Shown here: positions 919-13,773 of the stretch, piece by piece
Position numbering within the stretch: the first letter of the stretch is position 1
How the letters are laid out: each line of letters starts with the position of its first letter
Assembly: GCA_027041035.1 (NCBI GenBank)
Contig: JALULB010000072.1
Coordinates: forward strand, 1 to 14,155
Reading direction: 5' to 3'
From: Sedimenticola sp.
GTDB taxonomy: Bacteria > Pseudomonadota > Gammaproteobacteria > Chromatiales > Chromatiaceae
Length of the DNA stretch: 14,155 nucleotides
Position numbers and translations under genes: made by a program
The notes under the pieces: model-generated
What the model saw: only the letters and a program-made list of their open reading frames with translations
Databases searched by the model: none
What the model was told of the DNA's origin: nothing

Positions 919-1470
919 ATGATAGACCGAGCCACCCGCAAGGCACGCCGCGACAAACGCCAGCAGGCGTTGCGCCGCTACGAAAAACACCGCCAGCGCA
1001 ACGTGCTCGCGCAACCCGGCGCGCACCACTTCGCCATCGTCCTGGATCACCTGAAGGCCGGTTTCAACGTACCGAAGATCTTCCGCAGCGCGGAGGTATT
1101 CGGCGCCAGCGAGGTGCATCTCGTCGGCATCGGCGCATTCGATGTCAACCCGGCAAAGGGTGCGTTCAAGAGCGTGCCGGCGCGTTTTCACGACGACTTC
1201 GGCGCCTGTCATGCCGATCTGCGCGAGCGCGGCTTCTCCCTGTTTGCGCTGGAGGCCGGTTGTGACACGCCGTTGACCGCCGCCGAGTTCCCGGAGCGAA
1301 GCGCTTTCATCTTCGGCCACGAGGAGATTGGGCTGAGCTTCGCTCGCGACGACTACCCCGATGTCGGCTGTCTGGCCATCCCGCAGTTCGGGCGTATCGA
1401 AAGCCTGAACGTCAGCGTTGCCGCCTCGATCGTGATGTATGAATACATCCGCCAACATGCGGCTCGATGA
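919..1470 (+). CDS. SpoU/TrmH-family (SPOUT) RNA methyltransferase
   Basis: A 183-residue protein predicted to transfer a methyl group from S-adenosylmethionine to tRNA or rRNA ribose, in the cytosol. The three SPOUT knot motifs are all present: motif 1 NVPKIFRSAEVFGASEV (residues 50-66, with the invariant Asn and Arg), motif 2 FIFGHEEIGLSF (130-141) and motif 3 CLAIPQFGRIESLNVSVAAS (151-170). The basic N-terminus (RKARRDKRQQALRRYEKHRQR) probably binds RNA. I chose the ATG at 919 because the extra residues of the longer reading frame (from a TTG at 853) come from the adjacent mobile element. There is no clear Shine-Dalgarno sequence. Its 3' end overlaps the next gene. The target nucleotide cannot be read from the sequence. 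Confidence 0.88.
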   Translation: MIDRATRKARRDKRQQALRRYEKHRQRNVLAQPGAHHFAIVLDHLKAGFNVPKIFRSAEVFGASEVHLVGIGAFDVNPAKGAFKSVPARFHDDFGACHADLRERGFSLFALEAGCDTPLTAAEFPERSAFIFGHEEIGLSFARDDYPDVGCLAIPQFGRIESLNVSVAASIVMYEYIRQHAAR

Positions 1471-2527
1471 GCTGATCGTCGGCCAGGGGCTGGCCGGCAG
1501 TCTGCTCGCCTGGCACCTGATCGAGGCCGGTCGCCGGGTCGCGGTCATCGACGACGCCGACCGGGACAACGCCAGCCGCGTGGCCGCCGGCCTGCTGAAC
1601 CCGCTGGCCGGTCGACGCCTGCGCCTGCCCGCCCGGCTGGATCCGGTGCTGGACGCCTCGCTGACGTTGTGGCGGCGCCTGGAACGGGCGTTTGGCCAGA
1701 CCTTCTTTCACCCGCTGCCGATGCTGCGGATATTCCGTGACCGCGAACAGCGGCGTCTGTTCGAGACCCTGCGCCGCGAACCGGCCTACCGCGCCTTCCT
1801 CGCCGGCCGCGCCGAGGTCAACGACGCCATCCTGATGCCGGACGGCGGCTTCATTCAAAGCCAGACCGGCTGGCTGGATACCACCGCATTGCTCGATGCG
1901 CTACGCGCCTGGCTCGTCGAGCGCCATGCGCTGATCGAGACGCGTTGCGACAGCGACGAATTCGTACCACGACCGGATCATGTGCGCTGGCGGGAACGAC
2001 AAGCCGACCGGGTGATCTTCTGCGAGGGCTGGCATCTGCGCCAGAATCACTGGTTCGACTGGCTGCCCTTGCAGCCGGCGAAGGGCGATATCCTCGATCT
2101 GGAGACCCGCGAGCAACTACCAGAGCGCATCATCAACAACGGTTGCTGGGCGATTCCGGCGAGCGCCTGCCGGCTGCGCTTCGGCGCGAGCAACCGGTGG
2201 CGTTTCGACGACAGCCTGCCCGAGACCGCCGGACGCCGCTGGCTGGAACAACAGCTCGCGCGCCTGTTTCGCTATCCCGAACGTTTCCGTGTCCTGACCC
2301 AGCGCGCCGGGGTGCGACCCGGCACCGCCGACCGCCAGCCGTTCATCGGCCGTCATCCCGAGTTTCCCCGACTGCTGGTGTTCAACGGCTTCGGCGCGCG
2401 CGGCACCCTGTTCATGCCATTGCACGCCGACGGCCTGACGCGGCATCTGTGTCGGAACGCGCCTTTGCCGGAGGACGCGGACATTCGACGCTACCATGAG
2501 CGATATGCCTCTCATGCGCCCGGTTGA
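1457..2527 (+). CDS. FAD-dependent oxidoreductase (DAO family, MnmC oxidase-like)
   Basis: About 356 residues with a classic FAD-binding Rossmann start: DELIVGQGLAGSLLAWHLIEAG (GxGxxG at residues 9-14, acidic D32 ending strand 2), then ASRVAAGLLNPLAGRR (39-54). Near the C-terminus GVRPGTADRQPFIGRHP and VFNGFGARGTLFMPLHAD are the usual DAO-fold flavin and substrate segments. The nearest functional analogue I see is the C-terminal oxidase of MnmC, which converts cmnm5U to nm5U in tRNA; glycine oxidase- or DadA-like enzymes are alternatives. The start is uncertain: ATG 1457 (14-bp overlap with the upstream gene) or ATG 1439 (32-bp overlap), neither with a clear ribosome binding site. It overlaps the downstream methyltransferase gene by 32 bp, implying translational coupling. 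The tRNA role is inferred from context. Confidence 0.8.
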   Translation: MRLDELIVGQGLAGSLLAWHLIEAGRRVAVIDDADRDNASRVAAGLLNPLAGRRLRLPARLDPVLDASLTLWRRLERAFGQTFFHPLPMLRIFRDREQRRLFETLRREPAYRAFLAGRAEVNDAILMPDGGFIQSQTGWLDTTALLDALRAWLVERHALIETRCDSDEFVPRPDHVRWRERQADRVIFCEGWHLRQNHWFDWLPLQPAKGDILDLETREQLPERIINNGCWAIPASACRLRFGASNRWRFDDSLPETAGRRWLEQQLARLFRYPERFRVLTQRAGVRPGTADRQPFIGRHPEFPRLLVFNGFGARGTLFMPLHADGLTRHLCRNAPLPEDADIRRYHERYASHAPG

Positions 2528-3071
2528 ACTGGTCCAGGATTTCATCGGGAAACACCTGAAACCCGCCGATATCGCCATCGACGCCACCGCCGGCAACGGC
2601 CATGACAGTTGTTTCCTCGCCCGCCTGGTAGGCTCCGAGGGCCATGTGTTCTGTATCGACATCCAGGCAGAGGCGCTGGCGAACACAGCCCACCGCCTGG
2701 CCGCCGAACAGCTTGACCGGCGCACGACACTGATCCAGGGCGATCACGCGCGACTGACGCAACTCATCCCACTCGACACGCAGCCGCGCATCCGCGCCAT
2801 CATGTTCAACCTCGGCTATCTGCCAGGCGGCGACAAACGCATTGTCACCCGCGCCGACAGCACCCGCGCCGCGATCCGCGCCGCGTTGACGCTGCTGCCG
2901 GAGACCGGCGTGATGAGCATCGTCAGCTATCGCGGTCATCCCGGTGGGCAGGCCGATCACGACGCCGTCGCCGCCACACTCGCCGAGCGCGGTCGTCGCT
3001 ACCGTTGCGAGGAAACTCCGGGCGACGGGCCCGTCGCCTGGCTGATTGGATCAGGCTATTCGGCCGATTGA
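2496..3071 (+). CDS. mnmM: Class I SAM methyltransferase, YtqB/MnmM family
   Basis: A 191-residue Rossmann-fold methyltransferase. Motif I is AIDATAGNGHDSCFLARLVG (27-46) and the acidic residue after strand 2 is in VFCIDIQ (51-57). The family-specific motif is AIMFNLGYLPGGDKRIVT (101-118), with SYRGHPGG following at about 144. The NLGYLPGGD block is typical of YtqB-type proteins. In Bacillus subtilis this family (MnmM) methylates nm5s2U to mnm5s2U at tRNA position 34; older databases label it rRNA methylase. Alternative in-frame ATGs lie at 2505 and 2514, since no strong ribosome binding site decides between them. It starts inside the end of the FAD oxidoreductase gene, so the two are probably made together. 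Family assignment is strong; the exact tRNA substrate here is inferred. Confidence 0.85.
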   Translation: MSDMPLMRPVELVQDFIGKHLKPADIAIDATAGNGHDSCFLARLVGSEGHVFCIDIQAEALANTAHRLAAEQLDRRTTLIQGDHARLTQLIPLDTQPRIRAIMFNLGYLPGGDKRIVTRADSTRAAIRAALTLLPETGVMSIVSYRGHPGGQADHDAVAATLAERGRRYRCEETPGDGPVAWLIGSGYSAD

Positions 3072-3103
3072 GAATTTCATCCCGCCGGCACCGGTGGCTG
3101 GGT

Positions 3104-3109
3104 TATAAT
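3104..3109 (+). promoter_or_regulatory. -10 box of the aroG promoter
   Basis: A perfect TATAAT in the 75-bp gap between the methyltransferase stop and the aroG ATG, 38 bp before the start codon. No good -35 hexamer is found at 16-18 bp (TTGAGA at 3068 is 30 bp away), so an activator or a weak -35 may be involved. A possible degenerate counterpart (TATATAATCCC) lies before the aroG relic near 7997. Confidence 0.5.
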
Positions 3110-3146
3110 CGCAAGCCCTTTCCAACCCGGCCCGACAACACCAGCC

Positions 3147-4217
3147 ATGTATCATACAGACGATTTGCGCATCACCGGCATCAAGGATGTTTCCTCGCCG
3201 GCCCGGATCCGCGAGGAATTCCCGATCACCGAGACGGCCGCAAACACGGTTTTTCGCGCGCGCCGCGACATCCAGCGCATTCTGCAGGGCGAGGACGATC
3301 GCCTGCTGGTCATCGTCGGTCCCTGCTCGGTGCATGACACCGAAGCCGCGATGGACTACGCGCGACGCCTGGCCGAGGTTCAAAAGAGCCTGAAGAGCGA
3401 CCTGATGATCGTGATGCGCGTCTATTTCGAGAAGCCGCGCACCACCGTTGGCTGGAAGGGCCTGATCAACGACCCCGACCTGGATGACAGCTTCCATATC
3501 AACAAGGGACTGCGCCTGGCGCGCAAGCTGCTGCTCGACATCAATGAACTCGGCCTGCCGACCGGCACCGAGTATCTCGACCTGATCAGCCCGCAATACA
3601 TCGCCGACCTGATCAGCTGGGGCGCGATCGGCGCGCGCACCACCGAAAGCCAGGGACACCGCGAACTGGCCTCTGGACTGTCCTGCCCGGTCGGCTTCAA
3701 GAACGGCACCGACGGCACCCTGCGCATCGCCGTCGACGCCATCCAGGCCGCGCAACGCCCACATGTCTTCATGTCGCTGACCAAGGAAGGCACCTCGGCG
3801 ATCTTCGAGACCTCCGGCAACAGCGACACTCACGTCATCCTGCGCGGCGGGAGAAAAACCAACTATGATGCCGCGAGCATCGACGAGGCTGCCGCCGAGA
3901 TCGAACGCGCGAACCAACGGCCCGCGATCATGGTCGACTTCAGCCACGCGAACAGCCAGAAACAGTATCAACGTCAGGTCGAGGTCGGGAAGGATGTCGC
4001 CGCGCAACTCAGCGCCGGCGACGAGCGCATCATCGGCGTGATGATCGAATCCCACCTGGTCGGCGGTCGCCAGGACTGCATCCCCGGTAAGCCACTGACC
4101 TACGGCCAGAGCATCACCGATGCCTGCCTGCCATGGGACGACACCAAGCCGCTGCTGGAGATCCTCGCCGAAGCCGTGCGCCAACGACGCAACGTCACCG
4201 CCGGCACCGAGGCGTAG
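3147..4217 (+). CDS. aroG: 3-deoxy-7-phosphoheptulonate (DAHP) synthase, AroG type
   Basis: A 356-residue class I DAHP synthase that condenses phosphoenolpyruvate with erythrose 4-phosphate, the first step of the shikimate pathway in the cytosol. The N-terminus YHTDDLRITGIKDVSSPA and the following AANTVFRARRDIQRIL resemble E. coli AroG rather than AroF. Active-site landmarks are GPCSVHD (58-64, metal-ligand Cys60), RVYFEKPRTTVGWKGLINDP, GAIGARTTESQ.HRELASGLS, PVGFKNGTDGT, the DFSHANS motif with the metal His, and IGVMIESHL with the metal Glu. The length is normal. It has its own -10 box and is not obviously part of the upstream overlapping set. A decayed copy of its last third lies at 8036-8276. 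Whether it is feedback-inhibited by Phe, Tyr or Trp is not decided. Confidence 0.95.
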   Translation: MYHTDDLRITGIKDVSSPARIREEFPITETAANTVFRARRDIQRILQGEDDRLLVIVGPCSVHDTEAAMDYARRLAEVQKSLKSDLMIVMRVYFEKPRTTVGWKGLINDPDLDDSFHINKGLRLARKLLLDINELGLPTGTEYLDLISPQYIADLISWGAIGARTTESQGHRELASGLSCPVGFKNGTDGTLRIAVDAIQAAQRPHVFMSLTKEGTSAIFETSGNSDTHVILRGGRKTNYDAASIDEAAAEIERANQRPAIMVDFSHANSQKQYQRQVEVGKDVAAQLSAGDERIIGVMIESHLVGGRQDCIPGKPLTYGQSITDACLPWDDTKPLLEILAEAVRQRRNVTAGTEA

Positions 4218-4375: not shown

Positions 4376-5311
4376 CTACCTTCGCAGCCACTTACGTATC
4401 TTCGATCTCAGACCCAATCTCGTAAGTAACTCCCCGCTGAATGCCGCAAAGCGATCCAGGCCGGCATGTAGATGTAACATAAAATATGTAGATGGTTTTT
4501 TCTTCAGGCAAAACACGTTGGCACAGGTTATGTGGTCTGTACCAAAGCGACGCTTGTGTTCACCATCGCCTTCCGTGAAATCGAGTAATCTATAACGCTG
4601 CTCAGCGAATAGATCCTCGATAGCAAGCCAATGCAGCACCGTACCGGCTGACCATTTCGCATATTCTGGATCGTAGCCAAGATAATCGTAAAGCAGCATA
4701 TCTTCTACAATTCTCAACAAAAGGTAGGAAATCGGCCTATCTTCGTAAAGCAGAACGAACCCACGGACACCATCATTCGCCGCGGCGTTACGTAATTGAG
4801 TGAAATACTCCTGATTATCGGGTAGCCCAGCATCCAGCAATCTTTCCTGATATGTGTCTGCGGAGACCTTACGTGCGAATCGATAAAACTCTTCTATTTC
4901 ACCCGCAGACCGGTACGCACGAAAATCAATACTGCCACCACTAGCTTCGGAAAATTTACGGATCTTTCGACGAATGGTCGATCGGGTTTTCGATCGAAAG
5001 CCTTTCGTATAATCTTCGAAACTCTGCCGCATATTAATATAATGACGAAGGAATGTTTTCGGCGTGTAGATATAGTAGCCATCCCTCGCCTCCAACAGCG
5101 GTCTTGCCGTTGTAACTGGCAGGCCACGGATCGCGTAGCCTGACATGTCGGATTCCAGTACTTTGTCAGGCGGCAACGACATGTCACTACCTTCGTTGCC
5201 CAGACCCACCTCACAGGCCAGGACTTTGAAATGCATGGTACCGAATATAAGATCGCCGATCTGGAACTTCAGCATCTGTTCGGAAACGTGCCAGTCCTGA
5301 GCCATAGTCAT
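4376..5311 (-). CDS. CelD/FemAB-like GNAT-fold acyltransferase
   Basis: A 311-residue protein with the layout of the CelD/BcsL (BioF2-like, FemAB-related) acetyltransferase family. It has a basic helix SKTRSTIRRKIRKFSEASGG (107-126), then the GNAT-like core FYRFARKVSADTYQERLLDAGLP (142-164), RGFVLLYEDRPISYLLLRI (183-201), LLYDYLGYDPEYAKWSAGTVL (206-226, acyl-CoA loop) and YRLLDFTEGDGEHKRRFGTD (240-259). Members are usually found near exopolysaccharide or surface-glycan genes and are thought to acylate sugars or amino groups. The substrate is unknown. There is no signal peptide or membrane segment, so it is probably cytosolic. Its ATG overlaps the stop of the upstream deacetylase gene (ATGA, 5308-5311), so the pair is translationally coupled. 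The DNA is AT-richer than the flanking aroG and tRNA-modification genes. Confidence 0.72.
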   Translation of the reverse strand: MTMAQDWHVSEQMLKFQIGDLIFGTMHFKVLACEVGLGNEGSDMSLPPDKVLESDMSGYAIRGLPVTTARPLLEARDGYYIYTPKTFLRHYINMRQSFEDYTKGFRSKTRSTIRRKIRKFSEASGGSIDFRAYRSAGEIEEFYRFARKVSADTYQERLLDAGLPDNQEYFTQLRNAAANDGVRGFVLLYEDRPISYLLLRIVEDMLLYDYLGYDPEYAKWSAGTVLHWLAIEDLFAEQRYRLLDFTEGDGEHKRRFGTDHITCANVFCLKKKPSTYFMLHLHAGLDRFAAFSGELLTRLGLRSKIRKWLRR

Positions 5312-6264
5312 GGCAGACGCCCCCAGGCTTGTTCTACAAGCCGGGTTAGCGTTGGCAATGCGCCGCAGTGTAGTTGGCTGAACTCTCCATCCACTGGCCG
5401 CAGTCGTGGAGAACGGAAATCGATAGTCGTAAATCGCTCGTTATTTTTTGACAGGTACTCACAAAACTTAACGAATCGACCCACAACAACGGAACTTTTC
5501 CGAGTCTTTGAATCGTTCAGCATCTCGGCGGAATGCGTAAGTAAAACCAAGTGCTGCCATTTTTCCTGAAACGCATGATTCAGTATCGCTATGAGTTCAC
5601 CAAGAGAGCAAGCCGTAATCTGCATGGGACGTTGCCGCCCAATACCATCCCGGAAGATAGTCATCGGGACCTCGAGTATATCGCGCACAATTTCGGCCTG
5701 ATATATGGGTGGATTGAGATCAATCTCACAGGCGGGTTGGTTGCTGTTATAGCTTGAATCGATACCTATATTCGAGGTTGAAAGGGCCCGCAGCGTATCG
5801 AAGTTCGCACCAAAATTACCCGCTCTAAATGCATGCAACTTGGGGGCACCAGCAAGCCGGAGAAGTTCGCTTGCTTTATCCAGTAACACAACCTGTTCAT
5901 CATAACTGAAATAACGAATATGCTGCCTTTTTTCATTAACTTCAGGGAAGAGTGGCAATTTGGCTTCGTCTACCCACTCTGTATGTAGATGTAACTCTAC
6001 CGACTGCCCCGCATCAAGAATTGTCCCAACAATCTCCGCCAATGAATCTGGACCAAAACGTAACGCAAATAAAGGTTCAACAAAAAATGTTGCTTTTAGT
6101 TCGTTATCTTTTAGTACCCGGAGGAGAAACGGTAGACCATATTCACCACTTGGGGTCTTACCGTATATATATTTTTTCAGTGCATCCGGAAAGCATGCAT
6201 CCAGACTCTTCCAGCCATTGCACCAGAGTTCCGTGTCGACGGTAATCAAGATAGATAAACTCAT
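5308..6264 (-). CDS. Polysaccharide deacetylase-like protein (CE4, WalW-like)
   Basis: A 318-residue protein of the NodB/CE4 fold. Motif 1 is ILITVDTELW (5-14; D10, E12), followed by LKATFFVEPLFA (56-67). Motif 2 is VELHLHTEWVDE (89-100; metal ligands H92 and H94) and motif 3 is LHAFRAGNFGAN (143-154; R147), with LLTHSAEM near residue 240. The HxH form and the lack of a signal peptide resemble WalW-type enzymes of lipopolysaccharide gene clusters, which act in the cytosol on precursor sugars, rather than secreted chitin or peptidoglycan deacetylases. Its ATG at 6264 follows an AAGGAT ribosome binding site at about 7 bp. It heads the two-gene leftward unit and is divergent from the methyltransferase gene. 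The sugar substrate is not known. Confidence 0.78.
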   Translation of the reverse strand: MSLSILITVDTELWCNGWKSLDACFPDALKKYIYGKTPSGEYGLPFLLRVLKDNELKATFFVEPLFALRFGPDSLAEIVGTILDAGQSVELHLHTEWVDEAKLPLFPEVNEKRQHIRYFSYDEQVVLLDKASELLRLAGAPKLHAFRAGNFGANFDTLRALSTSNIGIDSSYNSNQPACEIDLNPPIYQAEIVRDILEVPMTIFRDGIGRQRPMQITACSLGELIAILNHAFQEKWQHLVLLTHSAEMLNDSKTRKSSVVVGRFVKFCEYLSKNNERFTTIDFRSPRLRPVDGEFSQLHCGALPTLTRLVEQAWGRLP

Positions 6265-8753: not shown

Positions 8754-9566
8754 ATGAAACACTATAAACTTTCCATACTCGCGATCACGATCGGCACGGT
8801 ATTCATGGTGCCGACCCAGGCCGCGCTGGTAAGTGGATTCGAAGGCGCGAGCGTCTTTGGCGATACCGATAGCACGGCGGGAAGCACCACCTGCCCGCTA
8901 TGTGATTCCACCGTCAGCTTTGCCGTATGGAAGAATGAGAGTGGAAACTGGCTGAACGATTCATTTTTCAGCGGAGCGGGTACGGCCACGGCATTGGCGC
9001 CATTTTCTAGCTCGGTGGATACCACCGCGAACTATGTATACCTGTACCAGGTCAACAACACAGATCCGCTCGCTCCACCCGAACAGGAATTGGAAAACTT
9101 CAATATTTCGTTTGGGCCGGTCGGTACCGCGGTACCTTTCACCAGTGGTGGTTACTTCGACGGAACCGTATTCAGCGGCTTGAGCAGCGCGCTGGTTCCA
9201 CTGGACGTGCCAAACAATCATACGCCGTCGTTGCTGACCAGCGTAGGCAACCTGGTTGCCGGTGTCGGCGTCAATCCGGATGGTCTGTCCCAGCTTGTCA
9301 TCACCAGCAACGCGGTGCAGAACTCCGCTCTGCCCGCCGAAGGCATGCTCTACAGTTGGAACGTGGGCAATGAAATCCAGCCTGGCGCCGCTTCCAGCGT
9401 GGTATTCCTGACATCGAACAAAGCGCCAGTCTATCAGTGGGCGGAAACCGAATCCCCGGGAGGTAGCGGCACGGCCGGCGACGTTCCATCGGTTCCGGTT
9501 CCGGCCACGCTGCCACTGCTGGCGCTTGGACTTATCGGAATACGGCGCTTCCGCGGAAAGAAGTGA
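8754..9566 (+). CDS. PEP-CTERM sorting-domain protein (exported, exosortase substrate)
   Basis: A 270-residue secreted protein. It has an N-terminal signal peptide (MKHYKLSILAITIGTVFMVPTQA, cleavage about residue 23) and a Gly/Ser/Thr/Asn-rich body. The C-terminal PEP-CTERM signal is SVPVPATLPLLALGLIGIRRFRGKK: VPVP at 247-250, hydrophobic helix about 251-263, basic tail 264-270. Such proteins are cut and anchored or released by an exosortase (EpsH/XrtA type) and often belong to the extracellular matrix. The body matches no family I can name. Its only two cysteines form a CPLC motif at 47-50. AAGGAG lies about 7 bp before the ATG, a strong start. Transcription probably comes from the sigma-54 promoter at 8592. 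No exosortase gene is in the window. Confidence 0.9.
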   Translation: MKHYKLSILAITIGTVFMVPTQAALVSGFEGASVFGDTDSTAGSTTCPLCDSTVSFAVWKNESGNWLNDSFFSGAGTATALAPFSSSVDTTANYVYLYQVNNTDPLAPPEQELENFNISFGPVGTAVPFTSGGYFDGTVFSGLSSALVPLDVPNNHTPSLLTSVGNLVAGVGVNPDGLSQLVITSNAVQNSALPAEGMLYSWNVGNEIQPGAASSVVFLTSNKAPVYQWAETESPGGSGTAGDVPSVPVPATLPLLALGLIGIRRFRGKK

Positions 9567-9764: not shown

Positions 9765-10526
9765 TCAATGGCTCAGACGATATTCCATGGGCACTTGCAG
9801 CGGCCACCGGCGCAGTCCGAGCGCTTTCGGCAATGGCTTGAAGCGGCCTATCGATCGCAGCACCTTCAGCGCGGCGTTGTCCAGCGCCTTGACGCCAGAG
9901 CTTTTCACCAGGCGGATGTTCTCCAGCCTGCCATCCGCGAGGATATCGAAACCCAGTTGGACCGTGCCCTCGCGACCACGACGCAAGGCGCGTTTCGGAT
10001 AGAACCTGCGCTTGCGCAGTTCCGCTGTCAGCGCGGCCTTGTAGCTGGCGCGGATGTCCTGGATGCTGGCGGCCGATGGCCGCGCCACGGACGCGGGTGT
10101 CTGGCTGGGCCGCGCGCGCGAGGCGATCATGCGTTGCAGATCACGCAGGCTGTCATCCGGGCGCGGCGTGCTCGTCCTGGGCGCGGGCAGCGCTTTCACG
10201 TGGCGTTTCCTTGGCTTTTTTCGCGGCTTCTTTTTCACCTTTCTCGGCAGTACCTTACGCGCCAGCGGCTTCGGTTTTTGCACCTTCGGCGGCGGCTCGG
10301 GTTGGGTTTTTACTGGCGGCGCGACCTCGGGAGGAGGCGGAGTCGGCGGCGTTTTTTTCGCCGTGGGCGCCGGAAGCGGGCGCGCGACGCTGACGCTGGC
10401 CAGATCGATGATCAGCGGCGCCGGGCTGGGCGGCGATTCGATCTCGCCGGCGTTCAGCGCCCACCAGCCAATGCCGGCATGCGCCAGCAGCGAGAGCAGC
10501 AGACCGAACAGCGTGCAGCGTCTCAT
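9765..10526 (-). CDS. tonB: TonB energy-transducing protein
   Basis: A 253-residue periplasm-spanning protein that passes the energy of the proton gradient from ExbB/ExbD to outer-membrane receptors. It has a single N-terminal membrane anchor (about residues 5-24) carrying the SxxxH motif (S12, H16) seen in TonB, then a Pro-rich linker (about 51-86) and a very basic Lys/Arg stretch (87-111). The C-terminal TonB domain (about 157-253) includes YPKRALRRGREGTVQLGFDI, DGRLENIRLVKSSG and ALKVLRSIGRFKPLP. It starts 10 bp after the exbD stop and is the last gene of the leftward set. It ends against the shared terminator. Confidence 0.93.
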   Translation of the reverse strand: MRRCTLFGLLLSLLAHAGIGWWALNAGEIESPPSPAPLIIDLASVSVARPLPAPTAKKTPPTPPPPEVAPPVKTQPEPPPKVQKPKPLARKVLPRKVKKKPRKKPRKRHVKALPAPRTSTPRPDDSLRDLQRMIASRARPSQTPASVARPSAASIQDIRASYKAALTAELRKRRFYPKRALRRGREGTVQLGFDILADGRLENIRLVKSSGVKALDNAALKVLRSIGRFKPLPKALGLRRWPLQVPMEYRLSH

Positions 10527-10536
10527 CGGCGAAGCA

Positions 10537-10914
10537 TCAGCCGGAAGGCTCGGCGACGATCGCGACCTGGCTGAATCGATCGCGCTTCAAGCGGTTGATC
10601 ACGACGATGAACGCTTGAAACGGCGCCTGCGCATCGACGCGCAGGGTAATGGGCGTGTCTTTTGCCGAGCCTTGCAGGCTGTCGCTCAAGCGCTCCAGCG
10701 TGACGGCCTCGTTGTCGAGAAACAGTGAGCTGTCCTTGAGCACCGAGATCTCGTGTGGCGTGGTTTCGGCGGCGGCCAGTTCGTCGCTGGTCTTCGGCAG
10801 TTCCATCGGGATCATGCCCTTGGCGATGAAGGTCGCGGTGGTCAGCACGATGGCGAGCAGCACCAACATGATGTCGATGAATGGAATCACATTGATCTGA
10901 TCGAAGCGCTTCAC
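10537..10914 (-). CDS. exbD: ExbD, TonB-system proton channel subunit
   Basis: A 125-residue inner-membrane protein. The N-terminus FDQINVIPFIDIMLVLLAIVLTT contains the single membrane helix (about 9-30) and the essential proton-carrying aspartate (D14, in PFIDIML). The rest is the periplasmic domain, ending with the typical AFIVVINRLKRDRFSQVAIVAEP. The length and short N-terminus fit the type 2 ExbD group found with short ExbB. The ATG overlaps the exbB stop by 4 bp (10911-10914), so translation is coupled and stoichiometric production is likely. Confidence 0.93.
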   Translation of the reverse strand: MKRFDQINVIPFIDIMLVLLAIVLTTATFIAKGMIPMELPKTSDELAAAETTPHEISVLKDSSLFLDNEAVTLERLSDSLQGSAKDTPITLRVDAQAPFQAFIVVINRLKRDRFSQVAIVAEPSG

Positions 10915-11333
10915 GAGTTCAGCTCGTTCCAGCGCGCGGTGAGCACATCGACATGCCGCATCAAGGCGTTGTAGAACATGATCGACGGAATCGCCACGAC
11001 CAGCCCGGCGGCGGTCGCCTTCAGCGCCAGCGCGAGACCGAGCATGATCGCCTTGGTATCGATGGCGCCGCCCTGCCCCATGTCGTAGAAGGTGATCAGG
11101 ATGCCGAGTACGGTGCCCAACAGGCCGACGTAGGGCGCGTTCACGCCTATCGTCGAGATCACGGTCAGATGCCGGGTCAACGAGACGAACAGGCGATCGC
11201 GATTCGGTATCTCTTCCAATTTCACGCGCCAGTAGTAAAGGTAGCGCTCGAATACAAAGGTCAGCATGACGACGCTCATGAAACCCAGAGTGCCGAGTAC
11301 GAGATAGTCGAGATTGTGTTTGAGAAATTCCAT
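10911..11333 (-). CDS. exbB: ExbB, TonB-system energizer (short, type 2)
   Basis: A 140-residue MotA/TolQ/ExbB-family inner-membrane protein with three predicted membrane helices (about 10-28, 62-84, 95-118). The core GVNAPYVGLLGTVLGILITF and IMLGLALALKATAAGLVVAIPSIMFYN is the conserved pore region. It is much shorter than E. coli ExbB (244 residues), as in the ExbB2 group. With ExbD it forms the proton channel that drives TonB. The ATG at 11333 lacks a strong Shine-Dalgarno sequence. Upstream, towards the receptor gene, lies the 177-bp palindromic element. Confidence 0.93.
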   Translation of the reverse strand: MEFLKHNLDYLVLGTLGFMSVVMLTFVFERYLYYWRVKLEEIPNRDRLFVSLTRHLTVISTIGVNAPYVGLLGTVLGILITFYDMGQGGAIDTKAIMLGLALALKATAAGLVVAIPSIMFYNALMRHVDVLTARWNELNS

Positions 11334-11440
11334 AAGGCTTGCCGGCTAGAAAACGAGCGGGATTCTATCACCCGATAACCTAAAAAGGCCGGCCCATGTC
11401 GCCACATGAGCTGACCTGATCACAACACACTGTTTTATTC

Positions 11441-11617
11441 AGGTAACTACTCGCCCCTGGCTTCTCAACGCTATTCAATCACCGCTATTGGCTGTTTCTG
11501 GAGGAAACGTCGGCGGCAGGGATGCCGTCGTCGAGCCTACAGGGATGTATTGACGGCGTTTTCCGGAAGAAACAGCCCATAGCGGTGACGACTACTGCCG
11601 GGAGCGAGTAGTTACCT
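11441..11617. mobile_element. 177-bp MITE-like palindromic element between the receptor gene and exbB
   Basis: It is bounded by perfect 14-bp inverted repeats, AGGTAACTACTCGC at 11441-11454 and its complement at 11604-11617. The mirror similarity continues inside: TCACCGCTATTGGCTGTTTC on the left against TCACCGCTATGGGCTGTTTC read from the right, then GGAAACG against GGAAAACG. The centre contains CAGGGATG twice (near 11517 and 11541). There is no coding capacity. It starts 2 bp after the receptor stop codon. Its ends are unlike those of the element at 741-908. It could be a MITE or a REP-like hairpin cluster. It has no run of T after the stem, so it is not a classic terminator. Confidence 0.78.
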
Positions 11618-11619
11618 TT

Positions 11620-13773
11620 TCAGAACTTCAACGTCGCCCGAACGAACAGGCTGCGCCCCGCGCCGGGAATCCGTTCGCCCACCGCCAGGTCGACCGGCTC
11701 GCCATGCTCGTCGGCGGACACGCGATTGTAACCGGCCAGATGGTCGTAGTAGAGACGATCGAAGAGATTGTTGACGCCGGCATTCACTGTCAGGTCTTTA
11801 CCGACCCGATAGCTGCCAAGTAGATTCACGATGCCGTAACCCGGCGTCGCCTGTTCCGCATTGGTTTCCGATACATCATCCTGCGCCGCGTAGAACACGC
11901 CTTCGGTCGTCAGCGACCAATTCGTGCGGCGATAAGTCAGTGCCAACGTCGCATTGAGGGGGGCAATGCGGTACAGATTGTCGCTGATATCGCGGCGCTT
12001 GCCACGCACATAGCTGATGCTGCCATCCACGAACCAATGGGGATCGAATCTCATGCCGAAGCCGGCGTCGAACCCGTAGAATTCCGCATCGACGTTCGTG
12101 AACTGGAGCGGCACGCAGAACGCGGCGTCCGGATTGTCGGTGCAGAAGTTATTGCCTTTGATCATATTACCGACCTGGCGCCGATAGCTCAGCGCGGTGC
12201 CTTCGGTCAACGGCGTGCCTTGAATGTAGTCATCCACACGCTTGTAGAAAACGCGTGGCGTGAAATAGGCATCGTCGTTGCCCCAGTTCAGACCGAGGTC
12301 GATGTTATAGGCGGTTTCCGGATTCAGATCCGGGTCGCCGATATAGGTGCGCCTGTCGGCCAGGCCCGCCGTCGACTCCAGCGGCAGCCAGAGATAGCGC
12401 TCCTGATAGCTGGGCGCGCGGTGCTTGATACCCAGACCCAATTCGACCGTGGTCGTGGCGGACAACACGTGGCCGAGCTTGACCGCGAGGTCGATCATAT
12501 CGTCGTTCCGGGAACGATCGGCACTGTTGAACCCGGCCACCAGGCTGTCGACCAGCGGCTGAGTCATGCCCAGACCCTGTGCCGATACCTCGCCCGCATC
12601 GGAATGCACATGGGTATAGCGCAGGCCGGCGAGCAGATTCCAGCCCTTGCCGAGTTCGCCTTCCCATTCGCCGAACAGCCCCAGGCGATCACGCTCGATA
12701 TCGTTGTAGTTCTCGACCTGGAAGCCGGCGTTGTCCGGGCTGAAGATATCGGCATTGTGCCCTGCCAGCCAGCCATCGGTACCGAAACTGAACAGCCCCC
12801 CGGCCAACTCGGTGGACGCGCGCAGATCCCAGGCCCAGTCGTTCGAATCGGTAATCGCGAAGCGGCGCATCCGCATGCCATTGGCCATGCGCGTCGGCGC
12901 GCGCCAGGAAAAGTTGTCCATGCGATGATCCGTACTCTGGTAGTGGAGCCTGCCCTCCAGCTCGAAGGCACCCAGGCTGCCGGTGTATTCCAGGCTGTAC
13001 AGATCGCCATCGAGGAAGATGACATCCATCGGCAATGCCGGGGTGCCGGAATCATCGACTCGATTGTGCTGGTAGGTGACATCGACGGTATGCACCTCGT
13101 TGCGCACACCGTAACCCAGCGCCCAGCTCTTGCGCCGGTAGCCGCTGGGGATCAATTCGTCACCTTCGCCGACACGCAGATTGTCGGCGTCGTCCCAGCT
13201 GCCTTGAAACTGCATGCGTTGATGTTGATTGGCGGCACCGAGCAACGCGCCAGCGGACCAGGCGCCGTTGGCCGACTCGTAGCCACCGAGCATTTCACCA
13301 CTGAACTCGAAAGCATCGGAATCACCGAAGCGAATCCGTTTCGATTTCGCCGCCACCGTGCCGCCGATGGTCTCGCTGCCAGCACTGACCGGCGAAACGC
13401 CGCGCACGACCGTCAGGCTATCGAGGAACTGGGTCGGGATATTGCTCAGTGGCGGATCCATCCAGTTCGGACCCGCCGGCGCGATATTCAGGCCATCGAT
13501 CTGGACATTCACTCGCGTGCCGAACATGCCCCGGTATTGCACGATGCCGGTCAACGCGCCGTTCTTGTTCACGTTCGCGCCCGGCGCCTTCTCCAGCAGC
13601 GTTGCCGTATCGGCCGGTACATAGACCTGTGCCTCCGGCGTGACGCGATGCACATCGAAATCGCTTTCCGCTTGACCCTCTACCTGCACGATCGGCAGGG
13701 ATTCCGTCTCGACGGCGTTTGAGATGCCGGTTACGGCACACAGAACACTCAACGTTATGATTTTATTCCGCAC
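11620..13773 (-). CDS. TonB-dependent outer-membrane receptor, copper receptor (OprC/NosA)-like
   Basis: A 717-residue outer-membrane protein. It has a signal peptide (cleavage after ISNA, residue 20), a TonB-box-like segment LPIVQVEG (26-33), a plug domain with YRGMFGTRVNVQIDG (80-94), GPNWMDPPLSNIP (101-113) and LTVVRGVSPVSAGSETIGGTV (120-140), then a beta-barrel to the C-terminal Phe (FVRATLKF). RGMFG.R.N...DG and PN.MDPP match the copper receptors OprC and NosA. OprC binds copper with a CxxxM in the plug and an HxM in the barrel: here M105 and HRM (283-285) are kept but the cysteine is G101. The start is GTG at 13773 with GGGGAG 7 bp upstream. It precedes exbB-exbD-tonB in the same direction, so it is probably powered by them. 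Copper is the likeliest substrate, not certain. Confidence 0.88.
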   Translation of the reverse strand: MRNKIITLSVLCAVTGISNAVETESLPIVQVEGQAESDFDVHRVTPEAQVYVPADTATLLEKAPGANVNKNGALTGIVQYRGMFGTRVNVQIDGLNIAPAGPNWMDPPLSNIPTQFLDSLTVVRGVSPVSAGSETIGGTVAAKSKRIRFGDSDAFEFSGEMLGGYESANGAWSAGALLGAANQHQRMQFQGSWDDADNLRVGEGDELIPSGYRRKSWALGYGVRNEVHTVDVTYQHNRVDDSGTPALPMDVIFLDGDLYSLEYTGSLGAFELEGRLHYQSTDHRMDNFSWRAPTRMANGMRMRRFAITDSNDWAWDLRASTELAGGLFSFGTDGWLAGHNADIFSPDNAGFQVENYNDIERDRLGLFGEWEGELGKGWNLLAGLRYTHVHSDAGEVSAQGLGMTQPLVDSLVAGFNSADRSRNDDMIDLAVKLGHVLSATTTVELGLGIKHRAPSYQERYLWLPLESTAGLADRRTYIGDPDLNPETAYNIDLGLNWGNDDAYFTPRVFYKRVDDYIQGTPLTEGTALSYRRQVGNMIKGNNFCTDNPDAAFCVPLQFTNVDAEFYGFDAGFGMRFDPHWFVDGSISYVRGKRRDISDNLYRIAPLNATLALTYRRTNWSLTTEGVFYAAQDDVSETNAEQATPGYGIVNLLGSYRVGKDLTVNAGVNNLFDRLYYDHLAGYNRVSADEHGEPVDLAVGERIPGAGRSLFVRATLKF

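Follow-up and report, generated by a model that had tools for sequence, protein, structure and literature searches.

A putative flavoprotein oxidase encoded beside, and in many bacteria fused to, the tRNA methyltransferase MnmM: a probable operon-level replacement for MnmC

Introduction

In Escherichia coli and Yersinia, oxidation and methylation at the modified wobble uridine (U34) of tRNA reside in one bifunctional protein, MnmC. In Bacillus and Staphylococcus the methyltransferase is a separate protein, MnmM (YtqB), pictured in the 2023 paper on this enzyme as belonging mostly to Firmicutes, Chlamydia, Mollicutes and plants (PMC9976899). The same paper gives the partner of MnmM that would correspond to the oxidase part of MnmC, MnmC(o), as unknown; a fused oxidase-methyltransferase or an operon was expected, and none was found in the Gram-positives compared there. 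YtqA has been described as a radical-SAM (S-adenosylmethionine) enzyme of the synthesis of 5-methylaminomethyl-2-thiouridine, mnm5s2U (PMC12245174), and the name MnmL appears in a table of PMC12548931. Here we report on a gene pair in a stretch of 14,155 nucleotides from Sedimenticola sp. (GenBank assembly GCA_027041035.1, contig JALULB010000072.1; the whole stretch is referred to below as the window), in which a gene for a flavin adenine dinucleotide (FAD)-dependent oxidase overlaps a gene for MnmM. The two genes are inherited together and lie side by side far beyond chance, and in many other bacteria they are joined into one. We propose that the flavoprotein probably supplies the oxidase step that precedes methylation by MnmM.

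Results

Identity of the two proteins

The preliminary description of the window, made from the sequence alone, had assigned the two genes to the FAD/DAO and YtqB/MnmM families, and both assignments were borne out. The methyltransferase matched the NCBIfam MnmM equivalog (NF053511) at 175 bits, the cut-off being 135, and its closest solved structures are those of MnmM/YtqB. Judged by its sequence it is a true MnmM, that is, a SAM-dependent enzyme predicted to methylate 5-aminomethyl-(2-thio)uridine at position 34, nm5(s2)U34. In Bacillus subtilis MnmM, mutations of D34, N101, Y104, K110, Y141 and H144 abolish or nearly abolish activity (PMC9976899), and the window protein keeps these residues as D37, N105, Y108, K114, Y145 and H148. 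They are also mostly kept in the full-length fusion proteins described below, where D37, N105 and Y145 are found in 105/105, H148 in 104/105, K114 in 94/105 and Y108 in 86/105 (Phe in 19).

The flavoprotein matched PF01266 (DAO) with 141.6 bits. The best NCBIfam profile by score was that of ThiO (TIGR02352), at 97.6 bits far under its cut-off of 250.8, while MnmC_Cterm (TIGR03197) gave 83 bits against a cut-off of 174.2. A tree had been suggested as a check on the flavoprotein, and in the one produced it fell outside both the ThiO and the MnmC(o) clades, in a separate clade of 33 rows with support 100/99. This tree took 33 FAD rows, 16 of the 30 MnmC rows and at most one row of D-amino-acid dehydrogenases, which are thus hardly sampled; it is unrooted, so that the relative nearness of MnmC(o) and ThiO is not readable from it. 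As far as sequence can tell, the flavoprotein belongs to a third, separate clade of the DAO superfamily without a name, and is neither ThiO nor a piece of MnmC.

Two other identities were considered and rejected. A ThiO or thiamin role was rejected because of the score below cut-off, the separate clade and the fact that 12 of the 15 flavoprotein genomes searched also encode a true ThiO as a distinct protein; with such a ThiO in the same genome, the flavoprotein is not the thiamin enzyme. A broken MnmC was rejected since a search of the window's genome, a bin 62.7% complete, gave no PF05430, the methyltransferase domain of MnmC.

Arg287 of the flavoprotein aligns with Arg302 of ThiO, whose role is substrate binding (PMC3818420). 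The position is invariant in all FAD rows (89), MnmC(o) rows (30) and ThiO rows (13), and in 105/105 fusions. A second glycine motif takes the form GFG[AS][RK]G in the flavoprotein family, within the MnmC-like form GxG[AS][RK]G. In this comparison, whose FAD set includes some loci twice, GxG[AS]RG was present in 20 of the 30 MnmC rows and GLGSHG in one, the C-terminal GxGxxG motif not being picked up in nine; GH[FY]RNG, the form typical of ThiO, was not seen in 3 of the 13 ThiO rows. Trp231 stands where MnmC(o) and ThiO have Tyr before a conserved Pro. An AlphaFold2 model of the flavoprotein (predicted local distance difference test, pLDDT, 94.7) had glycine oxidase, CmiS2, iminodiacetate oxidase and MnmC as its nearest folds. 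The best solved-structure matches of the flavoprotein were glycine oxidases. In 9 of 12 within-genome pairs the flavoprotein is more basic than ThiO (p 0.007), which fits the expectation for an RNA binder.

Co-occurrence and adjacency

The preliminary description had proposed counting how often the two genes are adjacent in other genomes, and adjacency turned out to be general. A profile of 28 flavoprotein homologs was run against a species-level genome collection and the best 80 of 403 loci were inspected, genes being called adjacent if less than 150 bp separated the FAD stop from the start of MnmM homology. MnmM was directly downstream on the same strand in 61 loci (in three of which, L029, L051 and L089, it runs to or near the contig end), fused in one frame in 5 and within 0.8 kb in 3; two flavoprotein genes were at a contig end and 9 had no MnmM nearby. 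Among the hosts of the pair is Methylomonas sp. LW13 (L061), a cultured organism. MnmM (over cut-off) and the flavoprotein (E <= 1e-30) were also looked for, in two separate searches, in 204 evenly sampled Gammaproteobacteria. Each gene was present in 12 genomes and both in 11, and in 11/11 they were neighbours (Fisher p 3e-16; 1e-12 when families are the unit, a hand count of the tables giving about 152 of them). The two unpaired genomes were G055, with the flavoprotein alone, and G161, with MnmM alone. Since 61 of the 80 loci are adjacent and 5 fused, though MnmM occurs in only 12 of the 204 sampled genomes, the adjacency is far beyond chance. Evolutionary distances of the two proteins are correlated over 89 pairs (0.62; maximum of 0.25 in 1000 shuffles).

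The reverse set was chosen by MnmM within the phylum. MnmM was present in 31 of 397 genomes and 30 loci were fetched, the window's own genome being left out. An FAD gene was upstream on the same strand in 27/30, fused in five of them. This set is not independent, as it overlaps with the flavoprotein-chosen loci, and 28 of its 30 loci come from one family, probably Mariprofundaceae by sequence. L222 and L228 were counted as having the FAD gene with a match cut off by the end of the fetched locus (135.7 and 108.4 bits); in these two and in L217, L219 and L220 the genes do not touch and are about 0.5 to 1.2 kb apart. L199 (genome G608) and L200 (G334) are from single-contig genomes of the same class, in which MnmM is present with no flavoprotein within 1.5 kb.

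Fusions of the flavoprotein to MnmM

The first protein search returned P0019, a protein of 539 amino acids with an FAD domain at about 1-345 followed by MnmM at 353-537. When P0019 was itself used as the query, both domains were present in 108 of the best 120 of 2321 matches, and 105 of these proteins have at least 500 amino acids. The order was FAD-MnmM in all 108 fusions among the matches listed, and the MnmM model (NF053511) was matched by 56/56 fusions at E <= 1e-10. By source name they come, among others, from Mariprofundus sp. EBB-1 (P0161), several Pelagicoccus (P. albus, P0190, being one), Oceaniferula spumae, Verrucomicrobiia bacterium DG1235, gammaproteobacterial metagenome-assembled genomes (MAGs), an Opitutaceae and a Planctomycetes MAG; Pelagicoccus and Oceaniferula belong to the Verrucomicrobiota by taxonomy. 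In some source annotations the matches are called "FAD-dependent oxidoreductase" or "glycine oxidase". On a quick tree, made without bootstrap from a subsample of FAD domains (45 from fusions, 40 separate), the fused or separate label needs at least four changes, two of them forced by well-supported branches.

One fusion, P0123, was modelled with AlphaFold2 (pLDDT 94.0, predicted template modelling score 0.92). Over its second half the model matches the structure of B. subtilis MnmM in complex with an anticodon stem-loop (TM 0.95, normalised to the target, 1.2 A); over its first half it matches iminodiacetate oxidase, glycine oxidase, CmiS2 and MnmC. P0123, together with P0126 and P0171, is filed under Kaarinaea lacus, which NCBI taxonomy places in the cyanobacteria. 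In the tree, P0123 falls within a group of gammaproteobacterial-type fusions; the name is doubtful and may reflect an assembly contaminant or a transfer, and nothing is claimed here for Cyanobacteriota.

The rest of the U34 pathway

Searching the genome for MnmC and for MnmL had also been proposed as a check. PF05430 was found neither in the window's genome (G000, a bin 62.7% complete) nor in two 99%-complete genomes of the same genus (G001, G002). It was present in 0/11 of the genomes with both genes and in 48/204 of the sampled Gammaproteobacteria; for MnmC_Cterm over cut-off the figures were 0/11 and 45/204, in a search that left out G001, G002, G011 and the genomes of the exception set described below. 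For MnmL we used TIGR01212, which we take to be the family holding YtqA and also YhcC, YtqA and MnmL presumably being one protein. It was not found in the window's genome, which is incomplete, nor in G001 and G002. Over its cut-off it was present in 2 of the 15 MnmM genomes searched (G011, G023); among the 11 genomes with the pair it was over cut-off only in G023, with partial matches in G065 and G083. As the parts of MnmC and TIGR01212 were mostly not found, the flavoprotein is the only visible oxidase candidate in most of the genomes carrying the pair. MnmG, required for the cmnm5 substrate, was present in 15 of the 16 genomes searched for it, the window's genome included, and was over cut-off in 14.

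Genome G161, a gammaproteobacterium, carries an MnmC(o)-type oxidase that stands alone and passes the cut-off of TIGR03197 (L195, frame 2053-3714, minus strand), which by eye sits behind an ispG-like gene. Its MnmM is on another contig (L196, 1528-2088, minus strand), and no PF05430 was found in the genome. By its sequence, G161 is a literal mixture of a stand-alone MnmC(o) and MnmM.

Gene boundaries and neighbouring genes

The features of the locus are collected in Table 1. The closest named relatives are Sedimenticola MAGs, with identities of 80% and 61%. An alternative start of the FAD gene is the ATG at 1439, which would give a product of 362 amino acids. The nearest relative, L024, keeps the ATG equivalent to 1439 and lacks the one equivalent to 1457; other relatives start near 1457. 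Similarly, MnmM could start at 2514, and only the equivalent of that ATG is retained in L024. The overlap of 32 bp initially reported for the pair is correct for the longest frames and shrinks to 14 bp with the start at 2514.

Table 1. Features of the flavoprotein-MnmM locus in window coordinates; flavoprotein residues are counted from 1457 and MnmM residues from 2496.
Feature	Position	Strand	Remarks
FAD-dependent oxidase gene	1457..2527	+	356 aa from ATG 1457; stop 2525-2527
GQGLAG (GxGxxG) FAD-binding motif	1481..1498	+	residues 9-14; G9, G11, G14 invariant in 28 homologs
Arg287 in AGVRP loop	2315..2317	+	by alignment, substrate-binding Arg302 of ThiO (WAGLRP loop)
GFGARG motif	2387..2404	+	residues 311-316; like MnmC(o) GxG[AS]RG, unlike ThiO GH[FY]RNG
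MnmM (YtqB family) gene	2496..3071	+	longest frame from ATG 2496, 191 aa; stop 3069-3071
Asn105 of MnmM	2808..2810	+	counterpart of Asn101, the proposed general base in B. subtilis MnmM
Tyr145 to His148 of MnmM	2928..2939	+	counterparts in B. subtilis MnmM, both essential: Tyr141 and His144
SpoU-type RNA methyltransferase gene	919-1470	+	overlaps FAD start by 14 or 32 bp
aroG	3147-4217		downstream of MnmM gene

The neighbouring RNA methyltransferase noted earlier is real and of the SpoU type; as part of a conserved arrangement it did not hold up. Just two of the 80 loci, L024 and L025 from Sedimenticola, have it immediately upstream of the FAD gene, and four others have it farther off, so that such a gene is near the pair in 6/80 loci. 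The downstream AroG, near the pair in 5/80 loci, was rejected as a conserved part as well. Farther along the window there are a GNAT-type acetyltransferase gene (PF13480) overlapping a gene for a 318-amino-acid protein without Pfam match at E <= 0.001 (4376-6264, minus strand), a gene for a protein with a C-terminal PEP-CTERM motif whose score equals the Pfam cut-off as printed (8754-9566, plus strand), and genes for TonB, ExbD, ExbB and a TonB-dependent receptor of 717 amino acids, all on the same strand (9765-13773, minus strand).

Discussion

The identity of the two genes, their co-occurrence, adjacency and fusion and the conservation of catalytic residues were established directly, and there can be little doubt that the flavoprotein and MnmM serve one process. 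Concerning the process itself, we infer the tRNA substrate of the oxidase, its reaction and the order of the two steps: the flavoprotein probably converts 5-carboxymethylaminomethyl-(2-thio)uridine, cmnm5(s2)U34, to nm5(s2)U34, which MnmM then methylates. The side chain, cmnm5, is an N-substituted glycine, and the fold neighbours of the flavoprotein presumably act on glycine and N-substituted glycines. In the proposed sequence, MnmE/MnmG would place the cmnm5 group on the wobble U34, Arg287 of the flavoprotein would bind the carboxylate of the side chain, and a hydride would move from the glycine alpha-carbon to FAD. Hydrolysis of the imine would release glyoxylate and leave nm5(s2)U34, the amine of which MnmM would methylate with SAM to give mnm5(s2)U34. 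Hydride transfer to FAD followed by hydrolysis of the imine is described for glycine oxidase, and MnmC(o) itself has been recognised as glycine-oxidase-like (PMC3648344). According to the same paper, glycine and sarcosine are not significantly turned over by MnmC.

Several observations weigh against this proposal. On the side of the flavoprotein, its fold and profile scores are slightly closer to ThiO than to MnmC, and it can exist alone. The latter was seen in an exception set of 12 genomes, made up of those of the 11 loci without an MnmM neighbour (the two contig ends, L049 and L056, included) and G055: MnmM was elsewhere in 4/12 and nowhere in 8/12, completeness being known only for G055, which is complete. 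Six of these eight (L042, L054, L056, L063, L101 and L113, the last being G055) also lack PF05430. They may end at nm5(s2)U34, or another methyltransferase may take over; L101 is from Methylovulum psychrotolerans, and G055 carries TIGR01212. On the side of MnmM, Lys11, essential in B. subtilis (K11E is inactive), is replaced by Gln14 in the window protein, the position being His in 55 of 68 relatives and Arg, His, Lys or Gln in 103/105 fusions. In L199, L200 and L221, moreover, MnmM has no FAD gene closer than 1.5 kb. As for the rest of the pathway, the exclusion of MnmC is only a trend in few genomes (0/12 versus 48/192, p 0.07), TIGR01212 is present in G011 and G023, which both carry the pair, and MnmG was not found in G083, one of the 16 genomes examined, which has both genes. 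Finally, MnmEG is able to form nm5 directly from ammonium (PMC9976899, PMC3648344), so that MnmM has no strict need of an oxidase.

In two MAGs labelled Bacteroidia (L080 and L102) the flavoprotein occurs alongside an orphan methyltransferase of the PF05430 type. L080 is likely mis-binned, as it nests among Methylococcaceae in the tree.

The alternative that survives best, though we regard it as unlikely, places the flavoprotein in the same pathway at another step, where it would oxidise a different side chain or tune the level of mnm5. The genomes having the FAD gene with neither MnmM nor the methyltransferase part of MnmC, MnmC(m), would fit such a role, as would the separation of the flavoprotein clade from MnmC(o) and Trp231 in place of Tyr. 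Against it, the nearest folds belong to enzymes that presumably act on glycine or its N-substituted forms, the substrate-binding Arg is invariant, and the hole in the pathway falls exactly at the oxidase step. It is much less probable that the flavoprotein merely lies beside MnmM and oxidises small molecules, amines or amino acids, as an enzyme of the ThiO, DadA or sarcosine-oxidase type. ThiO is indeed its top profile and glycine oxidases are its best structural matches, but the score is far under the ThiO cut-off, most of the genomes searched have a true ThiO besides, the clade is its own, and chance adjacency would not yield at least 105 full-length proteins fused to MnmM. Least probable of all is that MnmM acts on nm5 made by MnmEG with ammonium while the flavoprotein only removes cmnm5 as a minor salvage or quality-control activity, for although the ammonium route is stated in PMC9976899 and MnmM occurs without a nearby FAD gene in G608 and G334, the near-obligate co-inheritance argues that the oxidase step matters.

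Returning to the flavoprotein as the cmnm5(s2)U34 oxidase, the suggestion of the preliminary description that two proteins replace MnmC has gained strong support from the adjacency, the fusions, the separate clade and the failure to find an MnmC methyltransferase domain in the genomes mentioned above. The two genes would form an operon-level replacement for MnmC that is gene-fused in many other bacteria. The further suggestion of a mixed route drawn from both known pathways needs a change: an oxidase does appear to be teamed with MnmM, but it comes from a separate clade and is not an MnmC piece, which makes the route less of a mixture. We think it likely, with somewhat more reserve than for the reaction itself, that this is a third family of cmnm5U34 oxidases, one that is inherited along with MnmM in Gammaproteobacteria, Mariprofundaceae and Verrucomicrobiota and has become fused to it on more than one occasion. 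A bifunctional wobble-uridine enzyme would then have arisen two times or more, with methyltransferases of different families and in opposite domain order, and the genomes lacking MnmM would end at nm5(s2)U34.

No description of the FAD-MnmM pair or fusion was found in the open-licence PMC literature; preprints and subscription journals lay outside this search and may hold one. What is new would be that a known two-step modification is performed by an unrecognised oxidase family together with MnmM, the bifunctional form having been built independently of MnmC. In other bacteria the operon that was expected and missed does occur, and over 100 protein clusters consist of natural fusions. If the proposal is true, the missing oxidase partner of MnmM is named for these bacteria, the annotations quoted above can be corrected, and the distribution of MnmM as pictured in PMC9976899 has to be qualified.

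Among known systems, the likeness to MnmM (YtqB) of Bacillus and Staphylococcus is the most direct, since both its profile score and its residues mark the window methyltransferase as a true MnmM. In the MnmM and MnmL (YtqA) system, however, the partner is a radical-SAM enzyme, whereas here it is a flavoprotein. ThiO, iminodiacetate oxidase (IdaA) and CmiS2 have small-molecule substrates, and ThiO carries its own motif, GH[FY]RNG, in contrast to GFG[AS][RK]G in the flavoprotein family. MnmC (PDB 3awi, 3ps9, 3sgl) has the same two activities as those proposed here, but its methyltransferase is PF05430 and that of the pair is MnmM, PF06962; the oxidase of the pair stays below the MnmC_Cterm cut-off and falls in another clade. 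In bifunctional MnmC frames PF05430 precedes MnmC_Cterm, and the fusions described here have the reverse order, with the FAD domain first and the methyltransferase second.

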